This document shows, one piece after another, positions 27,901 through 43,960 of a stretch of 64,000 bases of DNA; position 1 is the first letter of the stretch; each line of letters begins with the position of its first letter. The notes under the pieces are model-generated. The model did no database searches. It was not told the origin of the DNA and was given only the letters and a program-made list of their open reading frames with translations. Made by a program: the position numbers and the translations under genes. Source of the DNA: Acidisarcina sp. (GTDB lineage: Bacteria; Acidobacteriota; Terriglobia; Terriglobales; Acidobacteriaceae); NCBI GenBank assembly GCA_035539175.1, contig DATLIY010000006.1:124001-188000 (forward strand). The letters are read 5' to 3'.

Positions 27901-28614
27901 GCTCGTCTGCAGCTTGAATTCTTGAATTGCATCGGGAGGAGGCAGATTCACGTACGCCGCGCCGTTCATAAAATCCACGGTATCGTTATTGTTGTCAATT
28001 CCGTCCAGGATGTAGTTGTTGTGAATACTAGGTAGCCCGTTCGCTGTGAAACTACCCGAGCCGTCAAGGCCGCGGGTTGGCTTTAGGCTCGTGACACCTG
28101 CATTCAACTGTGCGAGGAATGTGTAATTACGCCCGTTCAAGGGAAGATCATTGATTTGCTGTTGCGTCGCCACGGCTCCCAGCGAGGCATCCTGTGTTTG
28201 TAATTGCGGAGCGACGGCGGTCACTTCCACGTGCTCGGTCTTCCCGCCTGGCACCATCCTAAAGTCCGCGCGGACTTGCGCCTGGACGTCGACTGCAACG
28301 TGAGCGCTCATCTGCAGGAAACCCGGCGACACCGCTCTAACCACATATGAGCCAATTCTGACCGGGTTGAACGTATATGTTCCATCGGACCCCGAAAGGG
28401 TTGAAACTGCAAAACCAGTCCCGTCATTTGTGAGAGTGATCTCAGCATGCGAAATGACAGCGCCGTTAGGGTCCGTGACAGTCCCTCTGACCGCCCCAGC
28501 ATCAACCTGGGCAAACAAAGAAGCCGCGGCGCACAACATCGTCGCTATGACGATTGCCCGCAACCCGAGGGAAAACGAAAATAGTCTCACCAGTATCCTC
28601 CCGTGTTCGTACAC
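24964..28614 (-). CDS. TonB-dependent receptor with carboxypeptidase-regulatory-like domain (Oar-like)
   Basis: A 1216-residue outer-membrane protein. After the signal (ATMLCAAASLFAQ) comes a beta-sandwich domain (VRGTVTDPNGAVISHAEITL), then a plug with NDLPLNGRNYTFLAQL and GGAVVNATVKSGTNQFHG, and a long beta-barrel ending in an aromatic residue (FALKAYF), as needed for outer-membrane insertion. It is predicted to import a large substrate using TonB energy. Such receptors are abundant in Acidobacteriota and lack SusD partners, as here. It heads the set encoding PHP, PLC-like and sulfatase enzymes, all exported, so it probably takes up their substrate or product. Confidence 0.93.
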   Translation of the reverse strand: MYEHGRILVRLFSFSLGLRAIVIATMLCAAASLFAQVDAGAVRGTVTDPNGAVISHAEITLTNDGTGFAVSTLSGSDGTYTFNPVRIGSYVVRAVSPGFLQMSAHVAVDVQAQVRADFRMVPGGKTEHVEVTAVAPQLQTQDASLGAVATQQQINDLPLNGRNYTFLAQLNAGVTSLKPTRGLDGSGSFTANGLPSIHNNYILDGIDNNNDTVDFMNGAAYVNLPPPDAIQEFKLQTSNFSAEFGRAGGAVVNATVKSGTNQFHGSVWEFMRNDLFDAMGLGQYFTSPANKKTTELRRNQFGVAVGGPIRKNKTFFFVDYEGTRIVTGGSSKSTVPTNSESGSGYTDFSDLFAYTGATSKDSLGRTFNKETALDPATTRVVTKGKADPVTGLTATANGYVRDPFVGAGAPGIRGVTNFATAAWYQYLNRIPANRLDPVAIRLLQLYPAANAPGFTNNYQATKKTPDNSDHFDTRIDHNFSDRDQLFGRASYTNRRTYNPTALPASSHTFGSGNGNRNDHSLNLAISETHVLSPTLINEARFGYSHLYTLNDFVDQNVMGIPATYGIQGIPQVNGNGGLPAIGISGLTSLGAASYASPNWRKSDTYQATDNLTKILGGHSFKVGAEYQRLRFPWSDPATSHGSFSFGGYTGIPGVTNGIGMADLLLTPIKSVVSNGVDLVGGANAVSASGIPTPDDLRNVLGVYFQDDWKATRNLTLNLGIRWEYFGDLGDANGNQAGLISDANGANAQFVVLNSAKNLQLATSFTDLLAKDGIALKYVSSIRDTPKTNFAPRLGVAYQVTPKLVIRAGYGIFYSGFENVGGQFDPAGNYPFSPTFYFNRPDASHPITFSNGTIATIENGLNAVNLSPSSPQFVAQGLAPTAFSSHGTSGYTQEWNGSVQFQLTGSQTVTVSYVGNNSHHLLDTGYMNQPSVILPPGTPNTLSYDPYPDLGRNIAYLLPNGSAIYESGQISFERRFSNGLSLLTNFTQSVCKTDAHSAIGMGDQGDRALAYNLPGYGLHKAYEYCGSDAPHIFHASGIWELPVGRGKLLATGASRVVDGMIGGWSAQAIFTVQDGFPLTIGCPTPTTAVYGCNANVAPGEKMYSHHGPHGITQFLNPAAFSNPPVATAIGQSDYSPLGGPATQAHGPGYTNLDFSTFKRFRAERADLEFRAEFYNLLNHPNFSNSFATLDFTNPQFAQINGTRGNARQVQFALKAYF

Positions 28615-29042
28615 GTAACTTGCTCAAAAAAAATCGCACCTAAAGCTCTTCTTTTGGTGAGACACCAAAAAGACCGGCCTCATGGTGCATGATCTTTTGT
28701 CGTGAAGACATGTGAATTTTCATTCCAACGCTGCGAATGACCGATTACAAGGCAGTGAATATATGGCAAATAGACGTTATGCTTCGCCTGGGTGGTCGCG
28801 GCCTCAACGAAAGTTGCGGTCCGCGGTCATCCAAGTTTCTTTGATATTGGATAGCTTCCAAACGCTCAAAAGCGCGTTCTGCGGTTGAGGTTCATTTGCC
28901 GGAACGAGCATGCCCGCGGTTGTAAGTGAAGGAACTTTGTTGTGGGATCAGGCAATTGCCGTTAACGTAAACGTGGCTGTTGACGCCATCCGGTGCAGAA
29001 GGCTGAGAATACTTCCATATTCCAAGCTGGCGCCAAGCGGGA
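28615..29042. other. intergenic region before the TonB receptor gene
   Basis: About 430 bases holding the presumed promoter of the receptor operon, a 19-bp palindrome (28652-28670) and, at about 28960-28970, GTTAACGTAAAC, which partly resembles the TTAACGTTAA core seen at 30415 and 41654. No ORF is supported. Confidence 0.45.
28652..28670. promoter_or_regulatory. 19-bp palindrome upstream of the receptor gene
   Basis: TTTTGGTGAGACACCAAAA: two perfect 8-bp arms around AGA, 38 bases before the receptor start codon on the minus strand. This fits an operator for a dimeric regulator, with the adjacent LacI-family protein a candidate, or a hairpin in the 5' leader of the mRNA. The sequence alone does not separate these. 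Confidence 0.55.
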
Positions 29043-30182
29043 TTAGCTTTCCTGACGAGATATCCCGGCGGCCGCTTCGCCTTCTCCTGAAATTGCCGCA
29101 TTATCGTCGGGATGAGTTCGACCTTCGACAAGGCGCGGGAGAAAGAGGTGTAGGTTGCTGCGCAGAATGATATAAGGTGCAAGCTGGGTCACAGGTTCGG
29201 GACGAACGCCTTCAACAAGGTGACGGATAAGCGTTTCGAATGCGACTCTTCCCTGCGTAAACGGGCGCTGGTAGATCGTCGCCAGAATCTTACCCGACTC
29301 CAGAAGCGCGGCGAGTTCCGGGAACAAGTCTGTGGCCACGACCTGCACGCGTCCAAGAAGGCCGTGTTCTTCGAGTGCTTTGAGTACAGGCAGGCTGTTC
29401 GCGGTACTGATGTAGAGTCCTGCGGCTCTGGGTTTTCGCTTTAAGAGAGCGACTGTCGCCTGATAGGCATCTTTCGGTTGATCGTAGGTCTCGATCGCTG
29501 GTAACAGCGTCAGGTGCGGCGCGACGACCGCCAGTGTCCCTGCAAAACCGCGCAATTTTTCGCCGTGATCGTAGGTGCCCAGGTCTCCGGTAATGGTGGC
29601 AACCATGCTTTCCGATTGGAGCACCCGGCCAAGAAGTTCAGCGGCGATTGCCCCGCTCACCGCGGCATCGACGCACACCGCCGATAACCGGCTGGAGCGC
29701 GGAGCGTCGCTGGCAACGCAGACCACGGCTGTGCCTCTGTCCGTAAAGCGTCGGATTGTCGATTCCAGGATGGCAGGACTTCCCGGGGTGATCAGTATGC
29801 CGTCATAGTCACGTTCGAGGTCCTGCTCCAACAGTTCGACATCGCCTTCGCCAAGCCACGGATAAGCGCGGAAATCGAGATCCATCTTGACTCCCGAGAC
29901 GGCTGCCGCCGCGGTGCGCACACCCTCTCGCAGAGGATCGAAAAACGACGCAATCTCTTTGGGCAGGTGAACGGCAAGACGAATTCTGCGGTTGAGCTTC
30001 AAGTTGCGGGCAGCCAGATTGGGCCGGTACTGCAGGCGCTCTGCCATCTTCAGTACGTTTGCCCGCGTCTTCGCACTCACACCGCTGCGGTTGTGAAGGG
30101 CGCGATCGACGGTTCCGATCGAAATACCGAGTGCCTGGGCGATTTCCTTAATACCCGCAGGCTTGAAGCAATGGTCAATCAT
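29043..30182 (-). CDS. LacI-family transcriptional regulator
   Basis: Start placed at ATG 30182, because the helix-turn-helix (IKEIAQALGISIGTVDRALHNRSGVS) should begin within about the first ten residues. A GTG at 30245 would add 21 unusual residues and has no ribosome-binding site, but the chosen ATG has only a weak one too. After the hinge region (RPNLAARNLKLNRRIRLAV) comes a periplasmic-binding-protein-like sensor domain with ITPGSP, LYISTANSLPVLKAL and VVATDLFPELAALL, expected to bind a sugar or sugar-like effector. It lies upstream of the receptor set on the same strand and divergent from the NHL/receptor/hydrolase genes, so either could be its target. Confidence 0.88.
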   Translation of the reverse strand: MIDHCFKPAGIKEIAQALGISIGTVDRALHNRSGVSAKTRANVLKMAERLQYRPNLAARNLKLNRRIRLAVHLPKEIASFFDPLREGVRTAAAAVSGVKMDLDFRAYPWLGEGDVELLEQDLERDYDGILITPGSPAILESTIRRFTDRGTAVVCVASDAPRSSRLSAVCVDAAVSGAIAAELLGRVLQSESMVATITGDLGTYDHGEKLRGFAGTLAVVAPHLTLLPAIETYDQPKDAYQATVALLKRKPRAAGLYISTANSLPVLKALEEHGLLGRVQVVATDLFPELAALLESGKILATIYQRPFTQGRVAFETLIRHLVEGVRPEPVTQLAPYIILRSNLHLFLPRLVEGRTHPDDNAAISGEGEAAAGISRQES

Positions 30183-30414: not shown

Positions 30415-30456
30415 TTAACGTTAATAACCTCTCATGGAACGGAAAAAGACTTCCCC
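30415..30456 (+). promoter_or_regulatory. composite regulatory element, copy A
   Basis: Perfect palindrome TTAACGTTAA (30415-30424), 13 bases, then AACGGAAAAAGACTTCCCC (30438-30456), which contains the inverted pair GGAA/TTCC. The same two blocks with the same 13-base spacing occur at 41654-41695. It ends 57 bases before the start codon of the NHL-protein gene. The CG-centred palindrome resembles LacI-family operators, and a LacI-family gene is the divergent neighbour, so operator function is a reasonable inference. Confidence 0.65.
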
Positions 30457-30513
30457 TTTGTGTATGTGGAACCCTAGATTTAACCGGTTTTTAAACGAAG
30501 GAGTAGTCTCGCC

Positions 30514-32769
30514 ATGAACGTTTTGACTGCGAAGCAAAAGCTTCGGTTGGGCTGCATCGTTTTGCTGGCAGTTACCAGGGCAGCCACGGGGCAGACTGCC
30601 TCTGTCGTACTTGGTCCTGGGACGATTACGACGTATGCGGGGAACGGATCGGCGGGCTACACAGGAGATGGTGGAGCGGCGACTTCAGCGACGCTGAATT
30701 ATCCGAGTGAGGTGCGTTCGGATGGCTCGGGGAACCTTTACATACTGGATACGGGGAACGCGGCAGTGCGGGAGGTTCTGGCCTCCGACGGTACGATCCA
30801 CACGATTGCCGGGACGGGCACGGCCTGTTCGTCGTCGACGGCGCCCTGCGGCGATGGCGGCCCTGCGGTGCAGGCGCAGATCAGTTCGACGACGCGGGGT
30901 CTTTTCGTAACGCAGAGCGGGGTTGTATATATCGCGGATACGGGACTGAACCGGATCCGGATGATCGACGCGAGCGGCGTGATGCATACGGTGGCGGGGA
31001 CGGGTACGGCGGGAGCGGCCGGGGACGGGGGAGCGGCGACCTCGGCACAGCTGAACGCGCCACGCGGGGTGTATCTGGATGGCTCCGGGACCCTCTACAT
31101 CTCGGACTCGGGCAACAACACGATCCGCACGGTGAACAGCTCGGGGGTGATCTCGAAGTTCGCCGGCGGGGCGTCGAGCGTGTGCGCGGGAGCGACCGAC
31201 GCGATCGGCGATGGCTGCCCGGCGCTGAGCGCCACGCTGTCGCTGCCGGCGGCGCTGTGGGAGGACGGGTCGGGGAAGCTTTATATCGCCGATATCAACA
31301 ACCAGCGGGTGCGGATGATCGACCCCGGCGGCGTGATGTATACGGTGGCGGGGAACGGGACGGGGGGCTACAGCGGGGACGGGGGATCGGCTACTTCGGC
31401 CGAGCTTCACACGCCGCAGGACGTGGTGAGCGACGCGGCCGGGGACCTGTACATCGCCGACTATGCCAACAACCGGATTCGCTATGTGAACGTGGCGGGA
31501 ACGATCACGACGTTTGCGGGAACGGGGACGGCGGGCTACAGCGGTGATGGCGGTTCGCCCCAGCTGGCCCGGATCAACCAGCCGCACGGAGTGGTGCTCG
31601 ATCCTTCCGGCAACCTTTATATCCTGGACTATGGAAATCAACGGGTTCGCAAGGTGAACCTGGTGACCGCGGCGATGAGCTTCGGCAGCGTTATCAGCCA
31701 GCAGTCGAGCACGGCGCAGAGCGTTACGCTGACCTCGACCGGGATGATGCCGCTTAACATCACCGGCATCACGATCCCGCCGTCGTTCAAGCAGGTTGCC
31801 TCGGGCGGGACGGACTGCGCGAACGGCGCGACGCTCAACCCGGGCGCGGTCTGCCAGCTCAGTCTGGAGTTTACGCCCTCCGACAACAGCACGCAGAACG
31901 CCACGGTGACAGTCGCCACCAACGCCACGAACCTGAACGGCGGAGCGGTGAACATCGCGGTCAGCGGAACCGGGATCTACAACGCCACAGTCGCGACGCA
32001 GACGACACTGACGGCTACGCCCGCCAGCACGTACCCTGGGCAGAGCGTGACGCTGACGGCAACGGTGAGCGGAGCCGGCGGAACGCCGACGGGCACGGTT
32101 GGCTTCTATGCAGGCAGCACGCTTCTGGGCACTGTAACGCTCAGCTCCGGCACAGCAACGCTGAACACCACAGCGCTGCCTTCGGGAACGGACAGCCTGA
32201 CCGCGCAGTACAGCGGCGACGCTACCTTCAAGCCCTCAACCAGCCCTACAACCACCGTCACCGCCTACAGCGGCCCACCGGACTTTTCCCTCGTAGCCAG
32301 CACGACATCTGCAACCGCGCTTGCTGGTCATTCGGTACAGAGCAACATAGTGCTCACGTCGCTCTCTGGGTTTTCCGGCGCTCTATCGTTGAGTTGCAGT
32401 GGCTTGCCGCAGAACGCAAGCTGCGTCTTCTATCCAACCAGTGTGACGCTTAGCGCCGGCCAGAAGGTCACAGCATTCGTGACCATCGGCACGACGTCTG
32501 CTCCGCCCACCATCAATGCGAGCATCGGAGGCACCAAGGTTTCGCTCGGCATACTCGGCTTCTTTGGCGTGCTGTTTGCGCGTAGACGCCGAAAATGTCT
32601 TGCTGGGTTGTGCACGATTCTGCTGCTGTCGGCGCTTACCGGCGCGATCGGCTGCGCCAGCATACCGCCGCAGAATCACAACGTAGCTTCCGGAACATAC
32701 AACATCACGATCTCTGCCGCGAGCGGCAGCGTTACCCACAACGCCACGATTGCGCTGACGGTGCAATAA
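30514..32769 (+). CDS. exported six-bladed NHL-propeller protein with Ig-like domains
   Basis: A 751-residue protein preceded by AAGGAG. Signal peptide about residues 1-27 (ending ATGQT). Six NHL repeats follow, each with GDGG and a YI(A/L/S)D core closing in R(V/I)R, enough for one complete propeller. Then a choice-of-anchor-like domain (MSFGSVISQQSSTAQSVTL), a bacterial Ig-like repeat (TLTATPASTYPGQSVTLTATV) and a further beta domain that is interrupted by a hydrophobic stretch, ARRRRK, a second hydrophobic stretch and AIGCAS before a last beta-strand tail. No catalytic motif is seen; carbohydrate or protein binding at the surface is inferred. It is first in a run with a TonB receptor and two hydrolase-like genes. 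Confidence 0.88.
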   Translation: MNVLTAKQKLRLGCIVLLAVTRAATGQTASVVLGPGTITTYAGNGSAGYTGDGGAATSATLNYPSEVRSDGSGNLYILDTGNAAVREVLASDGTIHTIAGTGTACSSSTAPCGDGGPAVQAQISSTTRGLFVTQSGVVYIADTGLNRIRMIDASGVMHTVAGTGTAGAAGDGGAATSAQLNAPRGVYLDGSGTLYISDSGNNTIRTVNSSGVISKFAGGASSVCAGATDAIGDGCPALSATLSLPAALWEDGSGKLYIADINNQRVRMIDPGGVMYTVAGNGTGGYSGDGGSATSAELHTPQDVVSDAAGDLYIADYANNRIRYVNVAGTITTFAGTGTAGYSGDGGSPQLARINQPHGVVLDPSGNLYILDYGNQRVRKVNLVTAAMSFGSVISQQSSTAQSVTLTSTGMMPLNITGITIPPSFKQVASGGTDCANGATLNPGAVCQLSLEFTPSDNSTQNATVTVATNATNLNGGAVNIAVSGTGIYNATVATQTTLTATPASTYPGQSVTLTATVSGAGGTPTGTVGFYAGSTLLGTVTLSSGTATLNTTALPSGTDSLTAQYSGDATFKPSTSPTTTVTAYSGPPDFSLVASTTSATALAGHSVQSNIVLTSLSGFSGALSLSCSGLPQNASCVFYPTSVTLSAGQKVTAFVTIGTTSAPPTINASIGGTKVSLGILGFFGVLFARRRRKCLAGLCTILLLSALTGAIGCASIPPQNHNVASGTYNITISAASGSVTHNATIALTVQ

Positions 32770-32781
32770 AGGAACCCGGAA

Positions 32782-35700
32782 ATGAAAGAAACAATCATGC
32801 GCCGCATCGAAATCTTCTGCTGCATCGTGTTGCTGCTCACGGCATTTGTGCCGATGGCTAAGGCTCAGACAGCATCCGGATCGGTGAGTGGGGAATTGCG
32901 CGACACTTCCAACGCTCTGATCCAGAATGCTTCGTTAACGCTGACGGATATAAATACTGGTTTGAGCCGCACGACCACGACGGATGGGCATGGTATTTAC
33001 GCTTTTGCCAGCGTCCCCGCTGGCCAGTACCATCTGGTCGCGGAGAAGGACGGCTTCGACAAGATTGAGACCACTTTCAATCTTGAAATCGCCCAGCAAC
33101 AGCGCTTCGATTTTCAAATGAATGTCGGCTCCGTAAACCTCGTTGTCGAAGTAAAATCCGACAACGTTGCTATAGACACAAGCACTTCCGGCCTCGGCAC
33201 GGTTATCTCGAGTAAAGAGGTTACAAACCTTCCGATGGATGGCCGTAACGTGTTCGCGCTGGCTTCCCTGGTCCCCGGCGTTCTTCCGGGCGGAGGGTTC
33301 GGCGCCGGCCTGTCGACAACGCGCGGTGCGGCGATTGCCGCCGCATCAAACAATTTCCGCGCAAATGGCGGCGTTTCCGGCATGAACGAGATTCTGCTCG
33401 ACGGAATTCCGGTTACTGTCTGCTGTCAGGGGCAGCCTGCTCTGGTCCCCAATGTCGACATCGTTTCGCAGTTCAAGGTACAGACTAACGTTCCTCCCGC
33501 GAACTTCGGCCGCTCGAGTGGCGGCATTCTGAACATCATCACCAAGTCAGGAGGCGCGGCTGTCAGAGGTTCCATCTACGAATACATGCGCAACGCTGTG
33601 CTCGACGCAAATGGATGGTTCGCCAACCACAACAACGCCGGCGTACAGGCGCTCGTCTACAACCAGTTTGGCGGAACGCTTGGCGGCCCCCTCTGGATTC
33701 CGCATGTGCTGGATCGCAAAAAGACCTTTTTCTTCTTTGGCTTTGAAGGAGTGCAGTCCAGCCGTAGTACCTACAGCGAGATCACCGTACCCACGCCGCT
33801 GATGCGATCCGGCGATCTCTCCGAAGGGCCAGGCATCGTTTACGACCCCGACAATACTTTCACCGTCGGGGGGCAATTCAAGCGTCTGCCATTGCCGAAT
33901 AACGCCGCCGGAAAATGCTGCATCGTGCCGGCCAACAGGCAAAATAAGATTGCCCTGGCGATGATGTCGTTGTGGCCGGAGCCCAATCTGCCGACCCCGC
34001 AAGCGCCACGAGCCACCTCGAACTACGGCTTCTTCGCGCGCCAGTTCGATTCCGACCGGCAATATAGCGGCCGTGTCGACCGCACCATCAATCAGCGCTA
34101 CTCCTTGCTGTTGCGGGGCACCTACAGCACGAACGTCGACAAGCGCGGCGGCCCTTTCGGGAGCTACACCGATGTCAACTCCCAGCAGCAGTCCCTGCGT
34201 GCCTCCGTCATCGAGTGGGACAACACCATCGTGCTTACGCCTACGATGTTTCTCAACGCCCACTACGGCTTTTCCTGGCAAGCCAACCAGATGCATGGCG
34301 GGGGGCTTAATCAATCAGCGGTTGATTTCGGATTTCCCGGGAATTTCGTCGTGCAACAGCAAACGCCCGGCATTCCAACCGAATCGGTCAACGGCTACTG
34401 GGCAATCAGCCAGATTGCTGCGCAGCAGTTCTATCACTACACGCACATTGCCGGTTTGGGCATTACTCTGCAGCGCGGTCCACACACCTTCCAGGCAGGA
34501 TGGGATGGACGGCTGTTTCTGAACAACGTTTTCCCCGTCACCAACGGTGCGGGCTCTTTCGGATACGGCACGTTGTTCACTGTAGGCCCGCTCGGTACGG
34601 ATCAACCGGTTATTGGACAGGCGCAATACGACTCCTTCGCCTCGTATCTACTCGGTCTGCCTTCCGGTGGCAGTATCTCCGTCATGTCTGCCTTCGCCTA
34701 CCGGCAGCCTTACAGCGCATTCTATATTCAGGACGACTGGCGCGTGGTCCCGAGGCTGACGCTCAACCTCGGCGTCCGCTACGATCTTGAGGGCGGGCCG
34801 CTCGAGCGGAACAATAAGCTTTCGCAACTGAACCCCACCGCTGCTAATCCACTCTCGGGCGAAGTGGGCCTGCCATTCACAGGGACGATAGAGTATGGCG
34901 GCGCTGGTCGCAGCCGCCGTATGTGGACCATGCCGCTCAACGAATTTGCACCCCGAATCGGTTTTGCGTTCAATCTCTCCAATCAAAATGTTCTTCGCGG
35001 TGGTTATGGCATCTTCTATCTGCCTACCACGCAACGCCTCTACGACAGCGGTAATCCTGCCTTCGCCGTCACGACCCAATACCTGGCCTCGTTGAATGGC
35101 GGACAGACTGCGGCGGGCTCACTTAGCAACCCCTACCCGACGGGTATCGCTCAGGTTCAGGGGGCGAAAGCCGGCCCGATGGCCGCTATCGGCACAGATA
35201 TCGGGAGCGTGCTTTATAACTCGATTCCCGGCTATGTCCAGCAGTGGAATTTCGGCATCATGTCGCAGCGTACGCGAACCACCGTGGTTGGTCTTGCGTA
35301 TGCCGGCGCTCATGGCGTGCACCTGCCGATCCACCTCAACGCCAATGATCTAAACCCCAAGTACTTCGGCGCGCCTGGCGATACCAACGCCGTGAACAAG
35401 CTCTTGTACTCCCTCTACCCCAATCCCTTTCAGCCATACATCACCAGTGGTCCGCTGTCGCAGTCTACGATCTCGCAAAGGCAGTTGCTCAATGCTTTCC
35501 CGCAGTACAGTTCCGTCACCGAGCAGTATCTTTCGCGCGGATCGTCCTCCTACAACAGCCTGCAGGCCATCCTTCGGAGCCAGACGAATTACTTCACCGC
35601 AACGCTTACTTACACATGGTCGAAGAGCATCGGCAACGTGAACAACAACACGACCAGTTTTCTCGACACAGGCTCACCCAACTATCAGAACTCCTACAAC

Positions 35701-36303
35701 CTGGCCATTGAGCGCGCTGTCGATCCCACCGATACTCCTCAACGCTTCACAGCCGGGGTTATCGCGCGCCTGCCGGTCGGCCGTGGACAACTGTGGGGGA
35801 AACACATTGCAAGATGGGGCAATGCGCTCGTCGGGGATTGGACGCTGACGACGATCACCACCTTGCAAAGCGGTCTGCCTCTCAACGTTACCGCTGCGGG
35901 TGGTCCACTGCTTTCCGGACCGCGTCCGAATCGCGTACCTGGCGTAAACCCGCTCACCGTTGGTTCGATCCGCAATCGTCTGGGGCCGGATAGTCCCAAC
36001 GGCGTTGGCTACTTGTACCCTGGAGCCTTCAATTACACATTGGCCTTTCAGCTCGGCAATGTGCCGCGCTTGTCTCCCAATATTCGCGCTCAGGGTGTAT
36101 TGAATTCCGATATCTCGGCCATAAAGGACATCAACTTCGAGAGAGCCTGGCATCTGCAACTTCGCGGCGAGGCCTTCAATGTCTTCAACCGCGTGCAGTT
36201 TGACAGGCCTGCGTCGACATTCGGCCTGTCCACCTTTGGCGCGATCTCCAATCAAGCGAATCGTCCCCGTCAGGTTCAGGCGGCCATGAAGCTGATCTGG
36301 TAG
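32782..36303 (+). CDS. TonB-dependent receptor with carboxypeptidase-regulatory-like domain (Oar-like)
   Basis: A 1173-residue outer-membrane receptor starting 12 bases after the NHL-protein gene, with AAAGGAA ahead of the ATG; a second ATG at 32797 is possible. Signal peptide (IFCCIVLLLTAFVPMAKAQ), regulatory-like domain (SGSVSGELRDTSNALIQNASL), plug (VTNLPMDGRNVFALAS; GGILNIITKSGGAAVRG) and barrel ending VQAAMKLIW with a terminal aromatic. It is probably co-transcribed with the upstream NHL protein and the downstream hydrolase-like gene, so it is expected to import breakdown products of their substrate. Confidence 0.93.
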   Translation: MKETIMRRIEIFCCIVLLLTAFVPMAKAQTASGSVSGELRDTSNALIQNASLTLTDINTGLSRTTTTDGHGIYAFASVPAGQYHLVAEKDGFDKIETTFNLEIAQQQRFDFQMNVGSVNLVVEVKSDNVAIDTSTSGLGTVISSKEVTNLPMDGRNVFALASLVPGVLPGGGFGAGLSTTRGAAIAAASNNFRANGGVSGMNEILLDGIPVTVCCQGQPALVPNVDIVSQFKVQTNVPPANFGRSSGGILNIITKSGGAAVRGSIYEYMRNAVLDANGWFANHNNAGVQALVYNQFGGTLGGPLWIPHVLDRKKTFFFFGFEGVQSSRSTYSEITVPTPLMRSGDLSEGPGIVYDPDNTFTVGGQFKRLPLPNNAAGKCCIVPANRQNKIALAMMSLWPEPNLPTPQAPRATSNYGFFARQFDSDRQYSGRVDRTINQRYSLLLRGTYSTNVDKRGGPFGSYTDVNSQQQSLRASVIEWDNTIVLTPTMFLNAHYGFSWQANQMHGGGLNQSAVDFGFPGNFVVQQQTPGIPTESVNGYWAISQIAAQQFYHYTHIAGLGITLQRGPHTFQAGWDGRLFLNNVFPVTNGAGSFGYGTLFTVGPLGTDQPVIGQAQYDSFASYLLGLPSGGSISVMSAFAYRQPYSAFYIQDDWRVVPRLTLNLGVRYDLEGGPLERNNKLSQLNPTAANPLSGEVGLPFTGTIEYGGAGRSRRMWTMPLNEFAPRIGFAFNLSNQNVLRGGYGIFYLPTTQRLYDSGNPAFAVTTQYLASLNGGQTAAGSLSNPYPTGIAQVQGAKAGPMAAIGTDIGSVLYNSIPGYVQQWNFGIMSQRTRTTVVGLAYAGAHGVHLPIHLNANDLNPKYFGAPGDTNAVNKLLYSLYPNPFQPYITSGPLSQSTISQRQLLNAFPQYSSVTEQYLSRGSSSYNSLQAILRSQTNYFTATLTYTWSKSIGNVNNNTTSFLDTGSPNYQNSYNLAIERAVDPTDTPQRFTAGVIARLPVGRGQLWGKHIARWGNALVGDWTLTTITTLQSGLPLNVTAAGGPLLSGPRPNRVPGVNPLTVGSIRNRLGPDSPNGVGYLYPGAFNYTLAFQLGNVPRLSPNIRAQGVLNSDISAIKDINFERAWHLQLRGEAFNVFNRVQFDRPASTFGLSTFGAISNQANRPRQVQAAMKLIW

Positions 36304-36325
36304 AAACCTATGCGGGATTCCCGCG

Positions 36326-36337
36326 AATTACCGCAAT
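36326..36337 (+). promoter_or_regulatory. 12-bp element repeated before both sister hydrolase genes (copy 1)
   Basis: AATTACCGCAAT, 31 bases before the TTG start of the hydrolase-like gene at 36369. The identical 12-mer lies at 37826-37837 ahead of the sister gene. It may be a conserved regulatory or leader element, or survive from the duplication that made the two genes. Confidence 0.45.
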
Positions 36338-36368
36338 CCCTTAGGACACAACGAACGGAGGCAATACG

Positions 36369-37634
36369 TTGAATCGCAGAAAGTTCCTGCAGGCCGGAAT
36401 GGCCTCGATGGCTGGCTGGACTGCATACCGCGCGTTTGCGCAGAATAGCGGCGCTCTTTCCATGCCGCATCCCGACTTCCTTACATCCGAGGCGGAGATC
36501 CAGCGTGCTGTCGCCAAAGCCAGCCCGCTTCATGGGGCGCTGATCCCATCTGATATCAAGCGCCGCCTCGGTGCCACGCATTATGGTGGCAGGTACTTTT
36601 TCACCGACAAGCCGTATCTAGTCGAAGGCGCCGAGGCGCTACTCAACTTCGGTTCGCGCTCCATCAAGCTCTGGCTCGATAAGCGCCTCAAGGGTTATGA
36701 GTTTCACTGGCAATACCCGCTTGGACCGCAGGCCACGCTGCTCGATGTGCTGAAGCTTCCTGCCTTCCAGCATGTTCTCGATATGCCTTTCGAGGTCTAT
36801 AGCTTTGAAGTGGGCGCAGCCCGCGAGGAGGAGTTCGACCGCCGCGCCACTTTCGAACAGGAAGAGTCCGAGTTCGAAGCCCTGGCTGGATATCTCTATG
36901 AGCGTTTCCACAAGCGCAATGTCGTTTTCATTCTGCAGCACTGGGAAGGCGACTGGTTGCTGCGCGGAAATCAACGCGACGCCTTCCGCATCGGTAACAA
37001 GGTCGATGTCTCGGAACGGGCCGACGCGATGGTGCGTTGGCTAACCGCGCGGCAGAATGGCGTGAACCGCGCACGCGCCGCGTATCCGAATGCTACGTGC
37101 CGTGTTTTCCATGTCTCGGAGGTCAATCGCGTATACGACACGCTGTGGGGCTTGCCGGGGGTGATCACCGATGTTATTCCGCATGTCGAGGTCGACGGCG
37201 TCTCCTGGTCGAGCTATGACGGCATGGGCAGTGGCCCCGGCTCCGCGGTAAAAACCTGGCAAGGACTCGATATTATCGAGCACTGGTCGAGCCTCGGCCG
37301 CAAGAAGAAGCCATTCCTGATGATCGGCGAAGTTGGCCTTCCAGAGCACAGGCCAGGCCTGACGCCGCCCTTGATCACGCAGTGGTGGGATACGGCGATG
37401 TCGGTGTTTTTTGCACGCGAGATTCCCTACATCTTTCAGTGGGAACTCTTCGATAATGAGACGTTGGATAAGCAGAATAAGACGAAGCCCATCACCGATA
37501 TTTCGCAGCTCGAGGGCTTCTGGCTTATCAAGCCCGATGGCTCGCTCGGCATCGGCGCAACGTATCTGCACGCGTTGCTTACCAATCCAGGCGGTCGGCT
37601 GCCCACAGAGGTCCGTCGCAGTGCCGGAATCTAA
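36369..37634 (+). CDS. exported glycoside-hydrolase-like protein, TIM-barrel type
   Basis: A 421-residue protein. The start is TTG with GGAGG (36356-36360) eight bases upstream; a Tat-like signal follows (NRRKFLQAGMASMAGW). I cannot assign a numbered glycoside hydrolase family, but it has the hallmarks of a clan GH-A barrel: FILQHWEGDW (E193), HVSEVNRVYD (E251, candidate acid/base after a beta-strand), LMIGEVGLPE (E321, candidate nucleophile) and the closing YIFQWELFDN...GFWLIKPDGS. Every one of these blocks recurs in the next gene product, so the two are paralogues. It follows the TonB receptor by 65 bases. The role, inferred from context, is cleaving an extracellular polysaccharide. Confidence 0.72.
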   Translation: MNRRKFLQAGMASMAGWTAYRAFAQNSGALSMPHPDFLTSEAEIQRAVAKASPLHGALIPSDIKRRLGATHYGGRYFFTDKPYLVEGAEALLNFGSRSIKLWLDKRLKGYEFHWQYPLGPQATLLDVLKLPAFQHVLDMPFEVYSFEVGAAREEEFDRRATFEQEESEFEALAGYLYERFHKRNVVFILQHWEGDWLLRGNQRDAFRIGNKVDVSERADAMVRWLTARQNGVNRARAAYPNATCRVFHVSEVNRVYDTLWGLPGVITDVIPHVEVDGVSWSSYDGMGSGPGSAVKTWQGLDIIEHWSSLGRKKKPFLMIGEVGLPEHRPGLTPPLITQWWDTAMSVFFAREIPYIFQWELFDNETLDKQNKTKPITDISQLEGFWLIKPDGSLGIGATYLHALLTNPGGRLPTEVRRSAGI

Positions 37635-37664
37635 CTGGCGATGATGTCTGTTGCATGGAGAATA

Positions 37665-37698
37665 CTGCTTTGTGCGCGCAGCCGCGCGCACAAAGCAG
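37665..37698 (+). repeat. strong hairpin between the two sister hydrolase genes
   Basis: A perfect 14-bp stem (CTGCTTTGTGCGCG with CGCGCACAAAGCAG) around the 6-base loop CAGCCG, 30 bases after the stop of the first hydrolase gene. No T-run follows on the plus strand, so it is more likely an mRNA-stabilising or attenuating hairpin than a classical terminator. Confidence 0.7.
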
Positions 37699-37825
37699 AG
37701 TATGGATGCGATGCGGAGCGGCCTGCTGGCATTCCCGATCAGACGCGAAGTAAATCGCGGCGCGAGCGAGGGTAAGACATGCTGGCCTATCGATGCTCCC
37801 ATACGAACCCGGATGATTTACGGCT

Positions 37826-37837
37826 AATTACCGCAAT
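37826..37837 (+). promoter_or_regulatory. 12-bp element repeated before both sister hydrolase genes (copy 2)
   Basis: AATTACCGCAAT, identical to the copy at 36326-36337, 102 bases before the chosen start of the lipoprotein hydrolase gene and 24 bases before the earliest in-frame ATG (37862). Confidence 0.45.
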
Positions 37838-37939
37838 TACTTGACGCTCCCGCCATAGGAAATGAGGATGGTGCGTCGTGCGGTTCGCCTGCACTTTGCT
37901 GCTGTACGCGGAAATCAAACACAGAGGAAATTAATCAAA

Positions 37940-39658
37940 ATGCAGAGGAAGCGGCAGAGCATGGACCCTCGAACTTTTCTGGCGTTGGCGGTCCTGACGG
38001 CCAACGTGCTACTTGCAGGTTGCGGAGGCTATGCAGCGATTCAGGCACCGGCGCCATTGTCGCCCACGTCCCCGACAACGCAAACGACCATCGCCGACCA
38101 GATCGGCGTGACCAATGTGTCCGCGCTTTACCAGTACAACAAAAGCGAGTCGCTCCTCGATGAAGGGCGGAATCGCATGGCCTCCAATTCCAGCGAGTTC
38201 GGCGCCGGCCTCGGCACTCACGTGATGAAGCTCTGGTTATCAAGCAGCTATGCTACCTCCTATCCGAATACAACGGATTGGGGCACGATCAACTCGCTCT
38301 CCGACCTGGCCAACTCGCCTCCCTATACGCGCGCCTTCAACGATCCAAACTTCAATACCTATATTCTCGAGTCCTTCGAGTTCTGCCAGAAAACCAACAT
38401 TGGCACATGGGGAGAAACGCTCTGGAAGTCGGCCTCGTTTGCCACGGATACGACGTTGCAGAAGTGTGTTCACGATCAGTTCTACGCTCTGACGCAAGCC
38501 CTGCTGACCCATTACAACAATTCCGGCAAGACATTCGTGCTGCAGAACTGGGAGAGCGATAACGCGCTCGCTCCTCAAAACACCCGCGACTTCAGCCCCA
38601 CCCCGTCCGCGTCGCAAACATGCCCGGCCACCGATACCTCGGCCTTCTGCGTCGCCGTGCGCAACATGATCCTCTGGCTTCAACTCCGGCAACAAGGTGT
38701 TTCTGACGCCCGCAAAGCCACGTCTTATACGAATGTCACGGTTGCCGCTGCAGCGGAGATAAACCAGGTTCCCGGCTACAACTCCAGCTGGACTTACCCC
38801 AGCACCGTCGATCTGGTCATCCCGTCTCTGTCGATGGATCTGTACTCCTGCTCCTGCTACCCGCCGTCCGTTCCCGGTAATGAATATGCACTCTTCGGCA
38901 TGCTGGACTATCTCAAGAGCAAGCGCCACGACTCTGCGCAGTACGGGTCGCAGAATATCTACGTAGGTGAGTTCGCTACGCACGAGCAAATGTTCTACTC
39001 CGGCAATAACTGGACGGAGACCTCTTCGCAGCAGGCGCGCGTTGCAAATGCCCGGCAGGTGGAAAATGCTCTGCGCTGGGGTGCCCGCTGGGCCATTTAT
39101 TGGGAGCTCTACAACAACGTAGGCAGTGCATCGAGTAACGCCGGCTTCTGGCTGATACGCCCGCCCGGAGGCGGCTCCGACGGCCAGCAGCCCGACATGA
39201 CCCAGACCTGGGATTATTTGCAGAACATCATGGGGAAGGATATCGGCAACTACCGCTACGTTTACGAAGCGGAGAACCATTTCACCGCCGTCATCGGTGG
39301 AGCCGCCGCGGAAACAACAGACCCCTCTCTCTCCGGAGGGCGAGGCCTATGGCTTTCCGGTGCGAATGCGGGTTCCGCTCTTACCTTCGACGTCTACGTT
39401 CCTTCGAGCGGCAGCTATAAGCTTACGGTCGACATGCAGACTGGTCCGGCGCACGGTACTTTCAACGTTAAGCTCAATTCCGTCCAGGCAGGTTCAACCT
39501 ACGATACCTATAGCGCCACTAAGGGCTATCAGACTTACACGGTCTACACTGGAAATATACCTGCTGGCAACACAACTATAGACCTCGTCGTAAGCGGCAA
39601 AAATGCTTCGGCAACCGGTTTTGATCTTGTAGCCGACTCCATCCGTATCGCGCCGTGA
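37940..39658 (+). CDS. glycoside-hydrolase-like lipoprotein with C-terminal carbohydrate-binding-like domain
   Basis: Start chosen at ATG 37940, with AGAGGAAA about ten bases upstream; in-frame ATGs at 37862 and 37961 are alternatives, the first giving an unusually long N-terminal extension. The lipobox is VLLAGC, so the protein is lipid-anchored. The barrel domain repeats the blocks of the upstream gene: FVLQNWESDN, AAAEINQVPG, IYVGEFATHE, WAIYWELYNN and GFWLIRPPGG. A beta-sandwich of about 130 residues follows (YRYVYEAENHF...GGRGLWLSGANAGSALTFDVYVPSSGSYKL), resembling CBM6/CBM35-type sugar-binding modules. It probably binds and cuts the same polysaccharide as its sister at the cell surface. 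Family number not assignable by eye. Confidence 0.74.
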   Translation: MQRKRQSMDPRTFLALAVLTANVLLAGCGGYAAIQAPAPLSPTSPTTQTTIADQIGVTNVSALYQYNKSESLLDEGRNRMASNSSEFGAGLGTHVMKLWLSSSYATSYPNTTDWGTINSLSDLANSPPYTRAFNDPNFNTYILESFEFCQKTNIGTWGETLWKSASFATDTTLQKCVHDQFYALTQALLTHYNNSGKTFVLQNWESDNALAPQNTRDFSPTPSASQTCPATDTSAFCVAVRNMILWLQLRQQGVSDARKATSYTNVTVAAAAEINQVPGYNSSWTYPSTVDLVIPSLSMDLYSCSCYPPSVPGNEYALFGMLDYLKSKRHDSAQYGSQNIYVGEFATHEQMFYSGNNWTETSSQQARVANARQVENALRWGARWAIYWELYNNVGSASSNAGFWLIRPPGGGSDGQQPDMTQTWDYLQNIMGKDIGNYRYVYEAENHFTAVIGGAAAETTDPSLSGGRGLWLSGANAGSALTFDVYVPSSGSYKLTVDMQTGPAHGTFNVKLNSVQAGSTYDTYSATKGYQTYTVYTGNIPAGNTTIDLVVSGKNASATGFDLVADSIRIAP

Positions 39659-39874
39659 CTGGAAATACAAATGGGGGCTGTTGACGCTTGGGAAAAGTCC
39701 GATGATTGAAAGTAAAGTCGCCATCGCCGGCAAGAAAAACAACTCATGGGGCGAACGCAACGGCGGCCGACCCTCGAATACGTGGTCCACGGTGGGAGCA
39801 GCAACCTTCGGCGCGCAGGGATTCGCGATATCGAGGCCGGGAGTCAGGTTGATCTGCTAAAATCAACATCTCCC

Positions 39875-41257
39875 ATGCATGATGTCGAAAATCCGAAAAC
39901 ACCCCCAGGTGTCGAAAAACGATTATCGGGTAAAGTCATTGTCCCGGAAGTCGGCCTGAGTGCGGGGGAAGTTCTCGACCAATGCGCCAGAATTACGGAA
40001 AGCGAAGAGTTTCGAACAGCTCCCTTGCAGCAAAGGCTGCTTTTGCATTTAGTTTCAGAGACGCTCGAAGGGCGGGGGCTGGAACTGAAGGAGTATTCGG
40101 TCGGAGTTGAGGTTTTCAATCGAGGCGCCGACTTCGATCCTCGAACCGACGCTGTGGTTCGCGTCAGCGTTGGGCAGTTGCGCCGCCGCCTGGCAGCCTA
40201 TTACACGACCGCAGGCACTCAGGATGACATTGTCATCAATATTCCGAAGGGCCACTATTGGGCGGAGTTCAATCAGGCGTCCCGCAAGGAGGACTACAGT
40301 TCCGCCAGCGTGACGGTACCGCTCTCCGATGTTCCAGTGGAAGTGCAACCAATCCTTGAGCTCCCTGCCAAGAACCCAACACAGCGGTCGAAGCAGACCT
40401 TTTCGTGGCCGTGGCTTCTTGCAGTGGCACTAGTCGTGGCACTTCCTTCCTTCTGGCTGGGATTGCACCGCGGCTCCAGCCAGTCGGCACTTTCTGGCGG
40501 AGACATTCGCAAGAGCCTTTTCTGGTCAATGTTCTTAGAGGGAGATCCTCATGCCGTCGCGGTCATCGGAGTAGCCACCACGGCCTCGATTGGTCCGGTG
40601 GTGGTGCGTATGCCCAGCGTAAACGATGCAGGGGCAATCTCTACTAATAAGGAGATGCAGAAGATTGCTGCGCTTTTTGGGCAATCGCCTCTCCCGTATA
40701 GCGTTTACACGGGCATTGGAGACGCCATTGCGGCAGCGCGGCTGGAGCATGCCTTTGCCGCATCCTCGCTCGATTTGCCGATCCTTCCCTCGAAGGAGGT
40801 CCGTTTCAGCGATCTGCACTCGCAAAACGTTGTCTTTATATCCTCCCTGCGTTTCCGCGATCTGCACAGCTCGCTCGACCGCAAGCGAGATTTCGAGGCC
40901 GAGGATATCGGTGATGACCGCATTCGGATTGTGAACCATGCGCCTCGTGCCGGAGAGCAGTCATTCTATTATTCGATTGAGGGCTCATCCGGTCCATCAA
41001 CGGATTATGCATTGATCTCGATCTTGCCCGGAACGGAGAGCGACCACAGGATCATGGAAGTGGGCGGGACCGCTACGCTGGGCACAGCAGGTGCGGCCCA
41101 GTATCTCACTGAGGCTGCCAGCCTGTCGGAGTTGGATGGTCGATTAAGAAAGGACCGTCCTGCAGGTGCCTCCAGCGTGCAGGTGCTTCTGCGTGTCGAT
41201 ATCCTGGACAACCAGATCGTGTCCGTACACTATGCGACGCACCATTGGATCCGTTGA
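39875..41257 (+). CDS. membrane-anchored winged-helix transcriptional regulator (ToxR/CadC-like layout)
   Basis: A 460-residue protein if started at ATG 39875; an upstream ATG (39746) would add 43 residues of poor quality, and neither start has a good ribosome-binding site. The N-terminal part has a winged-helix-like domain with FRTAPLQQRLLLHLV, LKEYSVGVEVFNRGADFDPRTDAVVRVSVGQLRRRLAAYY and the wing INIPKGHYWAEF. One membrane helix follows (WPWLLAVALVVALPSFWLGL), then an extracytoplasmic domain of about 260 residues ending in TDYALISILPG...VQVLLRVD. The product of 54626-55918 has the same order and motifs. I infer a one-component sensor that reads a signal outside the membrane and acts directly on DNA. 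Confidence 0.75.
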   Translation: MHDVENPKTPPGVEKRLSGKVIVPEVGLSAGEVLDQCARITESEEFRTAPLQQRLLLHLVSETLEGRGLELKEYSVGVEVFNRGADFDPRTDAVVRVSVGQLRRRLAAYYTTAGTQDDIVINIPKGHYWAEFNQASRKEDYSSASVTVPLSDVPVEVQPILELPAKNPTQRSKQTFSWPWLLAVALVVALPSFWLGLHRGSSQSALSGGDIRKSLFWSMFLEGDPHAVAVIGVATTASIGPVVVRMPSVNDAGAISTNKEMQKIAALFGQSPLPYSVYTGIGDAIAAARLEHAFAASSLDLPILPSKEVRFSDLHSQNVVFISSLRFRDLHSSLDRKRDFEAEDIGDDRIRIVNHAPRAGEQSFYYSIEGSSGPSTDYALISILPGTESDHRIMEVGGTATLGTAGAAQYLTEAASLSELDGRLRKDRPAGASSVQVLLRVDILDNQIVSVHYATHHWIR

Positions 41258-41815
41258 TATCTTTCTCTTAACCGTAAAATCTTTACTGCCAGCCTAAAAA
41301 ATCGATGCTCCGGAAAAGGGCATTTCCGTGAAATTCACAAATGGAGTCGGGCTGTTGGATCCGTACTGATGTTTGCCGCGGACCTCAGCACCCAGGGCGA
41401 TTCGGGGAGCATTCTCCATCAAATAACTTCTAGCGATCAGTCCGTAAATGGCGCCTATCGAAAAGATCAGGAGCGCCTTATTTTCATGTTTTACGCAATT
41501 TCCCCAATAAGTTCTAACCTCAGTGGTCCTGAGAATCGTCCTGGGTTATGAAGAAGTACCCAGGAGGCCGGTCCTCATCTCAGGCTATCGAACTCTGCTT
41601 CAGCTCCCGGCGCGTCAGCTCTCTGCCGAACGCGCGGAAAATAGCGGGGAGCATTAACGTTAAGTACTTCCGGATCAACGGAAAAATACTTCCCAGCTTC
41701 CAGAAAGCCTTTTCTAATGTGGAGGTCTTTTTAATCTGCGATCCCGGCAAGGAAATTCAGGATAACGAAACGTTAGATTTCTCTCGACGAGCGCAGCAAA
41801 AGACAAGGGAATCAA
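41258..41815. other. long intergenic region before the FAD oxidoreductase gene
   Basis: About 560 bases with only weak ORFs. The notable content is the composite element at 41654-41695. I found no RNA structure or promoter pair that I would defend; a long 5' leader is possible. Confidence 0.45.
41654..41695 (+). promoter_or_regulatory. composite regulatory element, copy B
   Basis: TTAACGTTAA (41654-41663), 13 bases, then AACGGAAAAATACTTCCCA (41677-41695). The blocks match copy A (30415-30456) at 10 of 10 and 17 of 19 positions with identical spacing. It ends 120 bases before the start of the FAD oxidoreductase gene, suggesting common control with the NHL/receptor/hydrolase operon. Confidence 0.65.
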
Positions 41816-43960
41816 GTGAAACGAATTCTTCTTACGCTCAGCTTCGGAATAGTGTTTCTTGTCTCCTTCCCAACTGCTTTCTTTGCACAGCCCGCCCTCG
41901 ATAAGCATTACGACGTGGTTGTTGCAGGTGCGGGCACGGGGGGTGTGTCGGCTGCCATTCAGGCTGCCAGAATGGGAGCCCGGGTTGCCCTGCTGGAAGA
42001 GAGCGACTGGATTGGAGGCCAACTGGCTGCAGGTGTGGGGACGATGGATGAAGGCGTCGGGCCGAACGGTACGCCGCCATCCGGTATCTACGCGGAGTTC
42101 CTGAAGCGCGCCTCTGCCTACTACTCGAGCCGGGGAAAATCGATCAGCACATGCTACTGGAGTGCCAATCTGCAGCATTGCGTCACGCCAATCGCCGCAC
42201 GTGAAATTCTGATGGACATGATCGACGAGGTGAATGCGAAGGGCGCTCAGGGATCGCGCGGGCATATCGATCTTTACCTTCAGGATCGCGTTACCCGCGT
42301 TCTGGCGAAGGACGACGTTGTCACCGGTGTTGTTACGTCGCAGAATCAGCAATGGTCGTCTTCGATTCTCATCGACGCGACGGAGTATGGCGACGTAATC
42401 CCCCTGACGCCGGCGCGCTACCGTATGGGCCATTCCGTGAATGCAGACGGTGAGCCCAGTTGCATCCAGGCAATCACCTGGGTCGCTGAGATCAAAAAGT
42501 ACCCGCAGGGCATGCCCAAGGGGTTTGTGTTGCAGGATCCGCCGTCAGGGTATGAAAAGTGGAAACCGAACTTTGAAACCTCCATGCGCATCGACGGGAA
42601 CCCGGCAGATCGGAAGCTTCCGGTTAGCTTTGCTGAGTACGTTGGCTACCGGGGATTACCCGATACTGCCAATCCCGCGAATTATAACGGTGCCGAGATT
42701 GGCAAAATCACGCGCAGCGCGATGAACTGGTTCAACGATCTCGACGTGACCACCGACCTCTTCGACCGCACCAAGCGACAGCGGATTCTCTGCGAGGCGA
42801 AGCGGAAGACACTGGCCAATATTTACTACTTCCAGCATGAAATGGGCGAAACGCAATGGTCAGTGGCCAATGACGAAGGCTTTGACACGTCTTATAACAA
42901 GATGAATTCGTGCCCTGACATTCCGGCAGAATACAAAGCCGTCGAAGAAAATCTTCCCCAGATTCCCTATGTGCGCGAGAGCATTCGGATTGTAGGGGAA
43001 TACACGCTCACCGGTGGCGATATTCGCCGCGAGCGCAATTGGTCGATGTCGGTGAAGGGTTTCACGGATGCAATTGCTGTTGGTGATTACGCCGACGATC
43101 TCCATAGCTGTAACTCCAAGCCGGAATTCTTCGAACAGGACCTCGAACACATTACAGATTTGCCACCGGGGTTTCGCTTCGGACCATTTCAGGTGCCTCT
43201 GCGTTCCCTCATTCCAGAGAAAGTCGACGGACTTCTCGCTGCGGAAAAGAACATATCGCAATCGCGCCTGGCCAACGGAGCCACCCGGCTCCAGCCGATT
43301 ACGATGCTGACAGGTCAGGCGGCGGGTGCGCTGGCGGCGCTGGCGATATCCGAACACAAGCAGCCCAGGTATGTGGATCCGCAGCAAGTGCAGCTTACTT
43401 TGCTTGCGTCTGGAGTGATTCTCTCGCGTCAGCATCTGAGCCTCACGATCGGCTCCAAGGTGTGGCAGGCTGTCGAGTTTGCCCTCGTCAATGGATGGAT
43501 AGGGGACGAGGAGAACATCGACTTCGACCCGCACAAAACTGTCACGCGATCAATCGGGGCACGGATCCTGGCGAAAGCATTCCTGAGCAACAATTCTCAT
43601 AGCCTATCGGTGGCTGACATTACGCACAAGTTCGATATGGCGCCGAACACGGTGAAGCAGATCTATCCTGACGTTCCTCTTTATTCAGCCGATTTCAATG
43701 CCGTGACCGCCTTACATAATGAAGGGGCCATTGTGCCGTGCGTGCAGAAGAACAAGAATTTTTGCCCCGACGATCCGCTGACGCCAGGTGAATTTCTGCA
43801 ATCGGTAACGCGGTTAATGAGAAAGAAGAAGTGGGATTCGGGGACGGAAAAGCCGATGCTCGTGAATTCCACGCCTGACCGCGGACGTCAGCAGTTGACG
43901 ATCGAAGACGCGGCGGTCATTCTCTGTAACGCTGCACGCGTGAAGGCCAGCAGGAATTAG
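41816..43960 (+). CDS. exported FAD-dependent oxidoreductase
   Basis: A 714-residue GTG-start protein with AAGGGA seven bases upstream. A signal peptide (LLTLSFGIVFLVSFPTAFFAQ) is followed directly by the dinucleotide-binding motif YDVVVAGAGTGGVSAAIQAARMG, then GGQLAAGVGTMDEG and SILIDATEYGDVIPL, the pattern of the large FAD-oxidoreductase family often encoded with polysaccharide-degrading genes. A late block, ISQSRLANGATRLQP...TGQAAGALAALA, completes the FAD site. About 170 C-terminal residues form an extra domain with a repeated helical motif. Oxidation of a sugar or sugar acid is inferred from context; the electron acceptor is unknown. It follows the membrane-anchored regulator gene after a long gap. 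Confidence 0.85.
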   Translation: MKRILLTLSFGIVFLVSFPTAFFAQPALDKHYDVVVAGAGTGGVSAAIQAARMGARVALLEESDWIGGQLAAGVGTMDEGVGPNGTPPSGIYAEFLKRASAYYSSRGKSISTCYWSANLQHCVTPIAAREILMDMIDEVNAKGAQGSRGHIDLYLQDRVTRVLAKDDVVTGVVTSQNQQWSSSILIDATEYGDVIPLTPARYRMGHSVNADGEPSCIQAITWVAEIKKYPQGMPKGFVLQDPPSGYEKWKPNFETSMRIDGNPADRKLPVSFAEYVGYRGLPDTANPANYNGAEIGKITRSAMNWFNDLDVTTDLFDRTKRQRILCEAKRKTLANIYYFQHEMGETQWSVANDEGFDTSYNKMNSCPDIPAEYKAVEENLPQIPYVRESIRIVGEYTLTGGDIRRERNWSMSVKGFTDAIAVGDYADDLHSCNSKPEFFEQDLEHITDLPPGFRFGPFQVPLRSLIPEKVDGLLAAEKNISQSRLANGATRLQPITMLTGQAAGALAALAISEHKQPRYVDPQQVQLTLLASGVILSRQHLSLTIGSKVWQAVEFALVNGWIGDEENIDFDPHKTVTRSIGARILAKAFLSNNSHSLSVADITHKFDMAPNTVKQIYPDVPLYSADFNAVTALHNEGAIVPCVQKNKNFCPDDPLTPGEFLQSVTRLMRKKKWDSGTEKPMLVNSTPDRGRQQLTIEDAAVILCNAARVKASRN

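Follow-up and report, generated by a model that had tools for sequence, protein, structure and literature searches.

The window, by which we mean the whole 64,000-nucleotide stretch of DNA analysed here, carries an operon that begins with the gene of an exported NHL-repeat protein, continues with those of a TonB-dependent receptor, a glycoside-hydrolase-like (GH) protein and a hydrolase-like protein with a CBM6/35 domain, and ends with the gene of a proposed one-component transmembrane regulator; the gene of an exported FAD-dependent oxidoreductase follows (Table 1). On its other side the operon is adjoined by a LacI-family gene and a further receptor gene (24964-28614). Two tRNA genes (Rfam) lie elsewhere in the window, at 3682-3766 (-) and 20242-20316 (+). 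A 42-bp composite element, in which two boxes are separated by a spacer, precedes both the NHL gene and the FAD oxidoreductase gene, and the Rfam scan gave nothing at either copy.

Table 1. Genes and sequence features of the locus, in window coordinates
Feature	Position	Strand	Remark
Probable LacI operator CGTTAACGTAAACG	28960-28973	.	Between lacI and receptor gene 24964-28614
LacI-family regulator	29043-30182	-	Goes with receptor 24964-28614 rather than with the NHL operon
Composite element, copy 1	30415-30456	+	Ends 58 bp upstream of the NHL start codon (ATG); conserved in G243
Distal box TTAACGKTA	30415-30423 (copy 1); 41654-41662 (copy 2)	+	From three-site comparison
Proximal box AACSGMAARANACTTCYC	30438-30455 (copy 1); 41677-41694 (copy 2)	+	From three-site comparison
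Possible -10, TAGATT	30475-30480	+	18 bp after TTCCCC; by reading
NHL-repeat exported protein, first operon gene	30514-32769	+	G243 orthologue, 57%
TonB-dependent receptor, OMP_b-brl_4 and carboxypeptidase-regulatory-like domain	32782-36303	+	Pfam; G243 orthologue
Exported protein without Pfam match, GH-like	36369-37634	+	GH-like by reading of the sequence, not from a database
Exported hydrolase-like protein with CBM6/35 domain	37862-39658	+	G243 orthologue, 60%
Proposed regulator, one-component transmembrane winged-helix protein, last operon gene	39746-41257	+	
Winged-helix domain of proposed regulator	39962-40285	+	Residues about 73-180; model pLDDT 95.8
Predicted membrane helix, residues 222-242	40409-40471	+	Helix from model; membrane nature from hydrophobic sequence
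Composite element, copy 2	41654-41695	+	121 bp before the FAD oxidoreductase ORF
Possible -10 in copy 2, TCTAAT	41713-41718	+	17 bp after TTCCCA; by reading
Exported FAD-dependent oxidoreductase (PF12831)	41816-43960	+	Between receptor and GH genes in G243

The pair of 42-bp elements described in the original prediction is confirmed, with both copies on the plus strand at the positions given there. They agree at 31 of 42 positions, and the agreement is distributed as had been described: the palindrome is identical (10/10), the spacer has diverged (4/13) and the second block differs at 2 of its 19 positions (17/19 identical). This is the maximum for any same-strand ungapped pair of 42-mers in the 9,546 intergenic bases of the window, and the best pair in dinucleotide shuffles of these bases (n=40) reached 29. 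The genome scan proposed beforehand, with a pattern of 27 fixed positions and at most 3 mismatches, found the composite at two places only in the 3,916,581 bases of the own genome, both within one 11-kb stretch; among 300 genomes of the family, the own one included, the same search at the same tolerance matched in the own genome only. The exact palindrome TTAACGTTAA is likewise restricted to these two places in the own genome; its reversed control occurs at 3, so that the bare palindrome is at chance level. The second block alone gave 8 further matches in the own genome at up to 3 mismatches, each with exactly 3 (reversed control, 4), and none elsewhere in that genome at up to 2. Since the composite and the bare palindrome are found only at this locus genome-wide, we regard the element as a local two-copy element and not as a genome-wide site.

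An orthologous gene cluster with a single copy of the element is present in a genome of another genus (G243). Its genes lie on one strand in the order regulator, NHL protein, receptor, FAD oxidoreductase, GH protein and CBM6/35 protein, with identities of 49% for the regulator and for the FAD oxidoreductase, 57% for the NHL protein, 60% for the CBM6/35 protein and 73% over 383 residues for the GH protein; the receptor aligns as two segments separated by what appears to be a frame break, at 72% (the longer segment) and 66%. The two frames of this receptor orthologue meet at about 34965 (L085; joined stretch L086+L084+L085), which is either a frame break or a sequencing error. In the same joined stretch, an exported ORF at 27209-28810 (+), with a FAD-binding-like N terminus by reading, separates the orthologues of the GH and CBM6/35 genes and runs in the opposite direction to the cluster; thus, the operon in G243 may end before its last gene.

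The G243 element, TTAACGGTAGCTGGCATCCACCTAACCGCAAGAAACTTCTC, is placed between the regulator gene and the NHL gene and matches 21 of the 27 fixed positions of the composite, whereas shuffling gave at most 19 for the 51.8-kb region (n=200) and at most 20 for the 236-bp stretch (n=5000). The distance from its end to the NHL start is 57 bp, compared with 58 bp in the own genome, the GTG in G243 being taken as the likely start because GAAGGAG precedes it, as it does the own ATG; conservation upstream of orthologues, which a binding site had been expected to show, was thus found. The distal-box region of G243 reads TTAACGGTAG, in which the palindrome is absent. Comparison of the three sites, which come from two genomes and from the one orthologous cluster found, gives the consensus TTAACG-K-TA, 14 variable bases, AAC-S-G-M-AA-R-A-N-ACTTC-Y-C; the AACG and AAC cores of the two boxes are 21 bp apart, and the conserved part consists of the two boxes, the palindrome not included. 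At up to 3 mismatches, this consensus occurs in 398 genomes of the family at the three known places only (2 of the 398 genomes), with 1 match for the reversed control, and because it was built from the same three sites, only its absence elsewhere is informative.

As the G243 copy stands at the same place before the NHL orthologue, copy 1 can be regarded as an inherited promoter element. The FAD oxidoreductase gene has changed its position: in G243 it lies between the receptor and GH genes behind the one element, and in the own genome it lies behind the regulator gene, 559 bp on, with an element copy of its own. Its tie to the element thus survived a change of gene order, which is good evidence of function. 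The recurrence of the same genes together with the element in G243 supports the reading of the paired copies as a regulatory site rather than a recent duplication, and the FAD gene inside the G243 cluster, with its single element, supports the small regulon that had been proposed from the NHL/receptor/hydrolase operon and the FAD oxidoreductase. Judged from sequence comparison, the element is genuine and conserved, an operator for a small regulon of polysaccharide genes.

Further clusters were sought with the proteins themselves. The GH protein has relatives at E<=1e-40 in 3 of 398 family genomes, the third being G152 (39% identical), and around the G152 relative no other cluster protein was found except a weak relative of the CBM6/35 protein. 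A scan of 84,980 species genomes with an alignment of the GH protein returned 12 loci; these were set aside as further orthologous clusters, being only 33-36% identical, with 11 titled as other phyla and one being G152 again. At E<=1e-150, the FAD oxidoreductase was found in 1 of 120 genomes, which is the own one. A search of solved structures with the GH protein gave weak matches, mostly to phage coat protein, which we take as chance.

The LacI-family protein combines the DNA-binding domain (PF00356, E 2.7e-11) and the periplasmic-binding-protein-like domain (PF13407, E 4e-39) of its family, and solved relatives that align over both parts include CcpA. Orthologues (E<=1e-60) occur in 19 of 80 genomes, own included; ten loci from the 18 other genomes were scanned, and the gaps were read at seven of them. 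The exact motif CGKTAACGTNNNCG is present in five of the ten loci (L043, L044, L045, L047 and L049) and absent from L046, L048, L050, L051 and L052, and sites of this or a similar form occur in L043, L044, L045 and L049, in the gaps that flank lacI or the receptor gene next to it. A matrix was made from six sites picked by eye beside the orthologues, one of which (the second of L044) is off pattern; it omits sites unplaced relative to genes, namely that of L047, the second one in L045 and two among the three of L049. With this matrix the site at 28960 ranks 1 of 63,987 window positions, at 21.8 bits, and the two composites rank 16 and 48, at 8.9 and 6.3 bits; the eye-picked sites make it a rough test, but the 13-bit gap is nonetheless large. 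The only exact CGKKWACGTWMMCG of the own genome is the one at 28960, and at up to 1 mismatch the sequence is not enriched there (25 places, against 44 for the reversed control). The original prediction had regarded the sequence at about 28960 as a weaker half-match of the composite; this was not borne out, for it is the best match to a different motif and a probable LacI operator. A weaker LacI-like site, CGTGTTCGTACACG, third in the matrix ranking, lies at 28602-28615, where receptor ORF 24964-28614 starts; together with 28960 it could permit looping.

Relatives of receptor 24964-28614 are found near lacI in L049 (59%), L050 (46%), and L043 and L045 (about 35% each). The ten LacI-orthologue loci contain no relatives of the NHL, GH, CBM6/35, FAD oxidoreductase or regulator proteins at E<=1e-15, and no LacI orthologue occurs in the 51.8 kb around the G243 cluster. 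From this distribution, lacI with receptor 24964-28614 and the operon from NHL to regulator appear to be separate modules that merely adjoin.

The bearing of these results on the composite is as follows. It had been proposed that the LacI-family protein binds the TTAACGTTAA palindrome of both elements, and it would then repress both transcripts. Indeed, a symmetric form of the LacI motif, CG-TTAACGTTAA-CG, has this palindrome as its central 10 bp, copy 1 stands 232 bp from the start of lacI in the gap that separates this gene from the divergent NHL operon, and a central CG is given for 1173 of 1303 LacI regulators in passages of a survey (PMC4052901). The same passages describe LacI operators as even palindromes, mostly of 16-22 nt (PMC4052901), whereas the palindrome of the composites has 10 bp only, lacks most of the outer CG pairs, scores far below 28960 with the rough CGKTAACGTNNNCG matrix and is not kept in G243; the modules are moreover separate in the relatives examined. 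We therefore consider binding and repression of both transcripts by this protein unlikely, and the assignment of the composites to LacI is probably wrong.

The likelier binder of the composites, from gene content and structural models, would be the product of the last operon gene. This protein has no significant Pfam match of its own and forms one family with 15 relatives; Trans_reg_C is matched weakly in 5 of the 16, this protein not among them. Its model consists of an N-terminal domain, the long hydrophobic helix (222-242) and a partly ordered C-terminal domain. Modelled alone, the N-terminal domain is made of helices and a C-terminal hairpin, the arrangement of an OmpR/PhoB-type winged helix, with pLDDT 95.8. 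Its ten best structural matches are all of OmpR/PhoB type (SaeR, PhoB on DNA, RpaA and others), with a best fold-match Z of 7.5, which is middling: ScpB, not a regulator, came 11th at 6.3 and E. coli CadC 12th at 6.1. Foldseek by itself gave nothing below E 1 for the winged helix, and with the whole regulator model weak matches only, BcsB first (E 0.006, TM below 0.22); the profile matches to RpaA (E 0.17) and SaeR (E 0.74) were also weak. A 19-residue stretch that contains the third helix is identical to the G243 orthologue at 16 positions, compared with 6-12 in 14 other members of the family, as would be expected if the own and G243 proteins read the same site. Regulator orthologues (E<=1e-55, with at most 3 candidates scored per genome) occur in 2 of 398 family genomes, the same two that carry the element, although any parts of a cluster inherited as a whole would be expected to co-occur in this way. 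In a plasmid search with the regulator (269 records), 13 of the 15 matches listed cover about a quarter of it, namely the winged helix, and one covers at least 80%. One family member, probably L082 1405-2904, matches a malectin domain (E 5.9e-14), a hint that the outer domains bind sugars.

The family to which this protein belongs is regularly found next to receptor genes. For the nine other members in the own genome, defined by E<=0.001 to the N-terminal domain, a TonB-receptor gene is the nearest detected neighbour in every case, with gaps of about 0.1-0.9 kb; the ninth lies in the window at 54626-55918, beside receptor 50733-54371. In other genomes (E<=1e-30, 80 genomes), a receptor gene adjoins the member in 5 of 5. 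The 14 pairs, of which 11 are divergent, exclude the proposed regulator and its G243 orthologue, which lie in the cluster of a receptor and not directly beside its gene; the count is to be read with the possibility of short genes in the gaps and with the fact that receptor genes are common here (there are more in L091 and L092). The pairing nevertheless suggests that members of this family are local regulators of receptor genes in general. Between receptor 50733-54371 and regulator 54626-55918, a perfect 11-bp direct repeat, GATTTATCCGG twice, occurs at 54465-54486 (-) and is a candidate site of the latter. Near-perfect 10-bp repeats, AACAAAGATT AACGAAGATT AACG, lie at about 17002-17535 of L090, between a paralogous regulator and a receptor gene.

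We propose that the element is a two-box site of one activator, the product of the last operon gene, which senses a product of the polysaccharide and is under positive feedback, and that the LacI protein acts on 28960; from the sequence evidence at hand we consider this the probable explanation. The outer domain of the regulator would sense a product of the polysaccharide taken up by the locus, and its cytoplasmic winged helices would contact the two boxes, which lie two turns apart, from the same side of the DNA. The bound regulator, beside a poor -35 region, would then recruit RNA polymerase, thus controlling both the NHL operon and the FAD oxidoreductase gene. As the regulator gene is last in the operon, positive feedback is expected. 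The LacI protein would control the neighbouring receptor module via 28960.

Activation, as opposed to repression, is suggested because no consensus promoter was found and a weak -35/-10 pair directly adjoins the proximal box; the scan at both elements was for consensus sigma-70 promoters, ECF promoters being outside it. It is conceivable that the second block is itself a sigma-factor promoter (ECF or housekeeping) and the remainder chance, since it ends in TTCCCA or TTCCCC, which could be a weak -35. The lack of a consensus sigma-70 promoter, the conservation of the distal box and the lack of other matches to the second block at up to 2 mismatches, which argues that it is not a general promoter, make this very improbable. 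On the minus strand, a terminator-like match at 41708-41688 overlaps copy 2 at chance level (0.7 expected), with none at copy 1. In the interval from the regulator gene to copy 2, no terminator-like site was detected on the plus strand, so that read-through is another way in which the FAD oxidoreductase gene could be transcribed.

At 21 bp, the boxes are two helical turns apart, a distance compatible with winged helices bound next to each other. A tandem direct repeat seen by eye in copy 2 (AACG-N6-ACTTCC / AACG-N7-ACTTCC) was not supported by shuffles and is kept only as a geometric suggestion: for 21-22-bp repeats, p was 0.47 in copy 1, 0.06 in copy 2 and 0.54 in G243. In nine paralogue regions, 10-11-bp repeats stand out in two, and other spacings stand out as well (26-27 and 30-31 bp in L092, 30-31 bp in L091).

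Two further possibilities concern the binder. First, the element may be bound by another regulator, encoded elsewhere in the genome: the binder is only predicted, and the joint occurrence of element and regulator in 2 of 398 genomes cannot separate the parts of one cluster. We judge this rather unlikely, considering that neither genome has the element outside this locus at <=3 mismatches, as expected for a local regulator. Second, there may be dual control, compatible with the activator explanation, in which the membrane regulator binds the whole two-box element and LacI also binds the palindrome present only in the own genome, thus linking the neighbouring modules. In the own genome, the distal box of each copy forms a perfect palindrome and coincides in part with the core of the LacI motif; however, the composites have low LacI matrix scores, and no second genome with both modules adjoining was found, so that dual control seems distinctly unlikely.

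The activator we propose resembles the transmembrane one-component regulators of the ToxR/CadC type, in that a cytoplasmic PhoB-like winged helix, a membrane helix and an outer domain are predicted. For CadC, one study describes a requirement for two sites close to the target promoter (PMC5430869), and another reports that such regulators reach higher numbers per genome in several groups, Acidobacteriae among them (PMC10269533). It differs from that type in the sparse Trans_reg_C matches of its family and in the link of this family to TonB-receptor genes. Its DNA-binding domain matches best those of OmpR/PhoB response regulators (PhoB, SaeR, RpaA and KdpE), including PhoB on pho-box DNA, and boxes spaced by whole helical turns would fit their mode of binding; unlike them, the modelled protein has no receiver domain and has a predicted membrane anchor. 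LacI systems have their counterpart in the neighbouring LacI-family gene with its probable CG-centred operator at 28960, whereas the composite, two-boxed and non-palindromic in G243, is without most of the outer CG pairs of LacI operators.

A defined 42-bp target and a named candidate protein make the regulator proposal testable, and the pairing of regulator and receptor genes at all 14 loci examined would let gene order predict the regulators of many such loci. How Acidobacteria choose the polysaccharides that they scavenge appears little studied; among the titles listed in searches of open-licence full texts that named these bacteria, none concerned regulators of their TonB-receptor loci. 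In Bacteroidota, polysaccharide utilization loci (PULs) have local regulators, SusR and HTCS, that are membrane-linked and encoded beside the receptor genes they control. We regard it as evenly balanced whether membrane-anchored winged-helix regulators, each with its TonB-type receptor, make up a widespread and largely unrecognised family that is the standard local control of polysaccharide-uptake loci in Terriglobia, with the composite as the first identified binding site of the family. Such a family would be an analogue of SusR/HTCS: a predicted membrane-linked regulator is again encoded beside receptor genes, but with another protein architecture and in another phylum.
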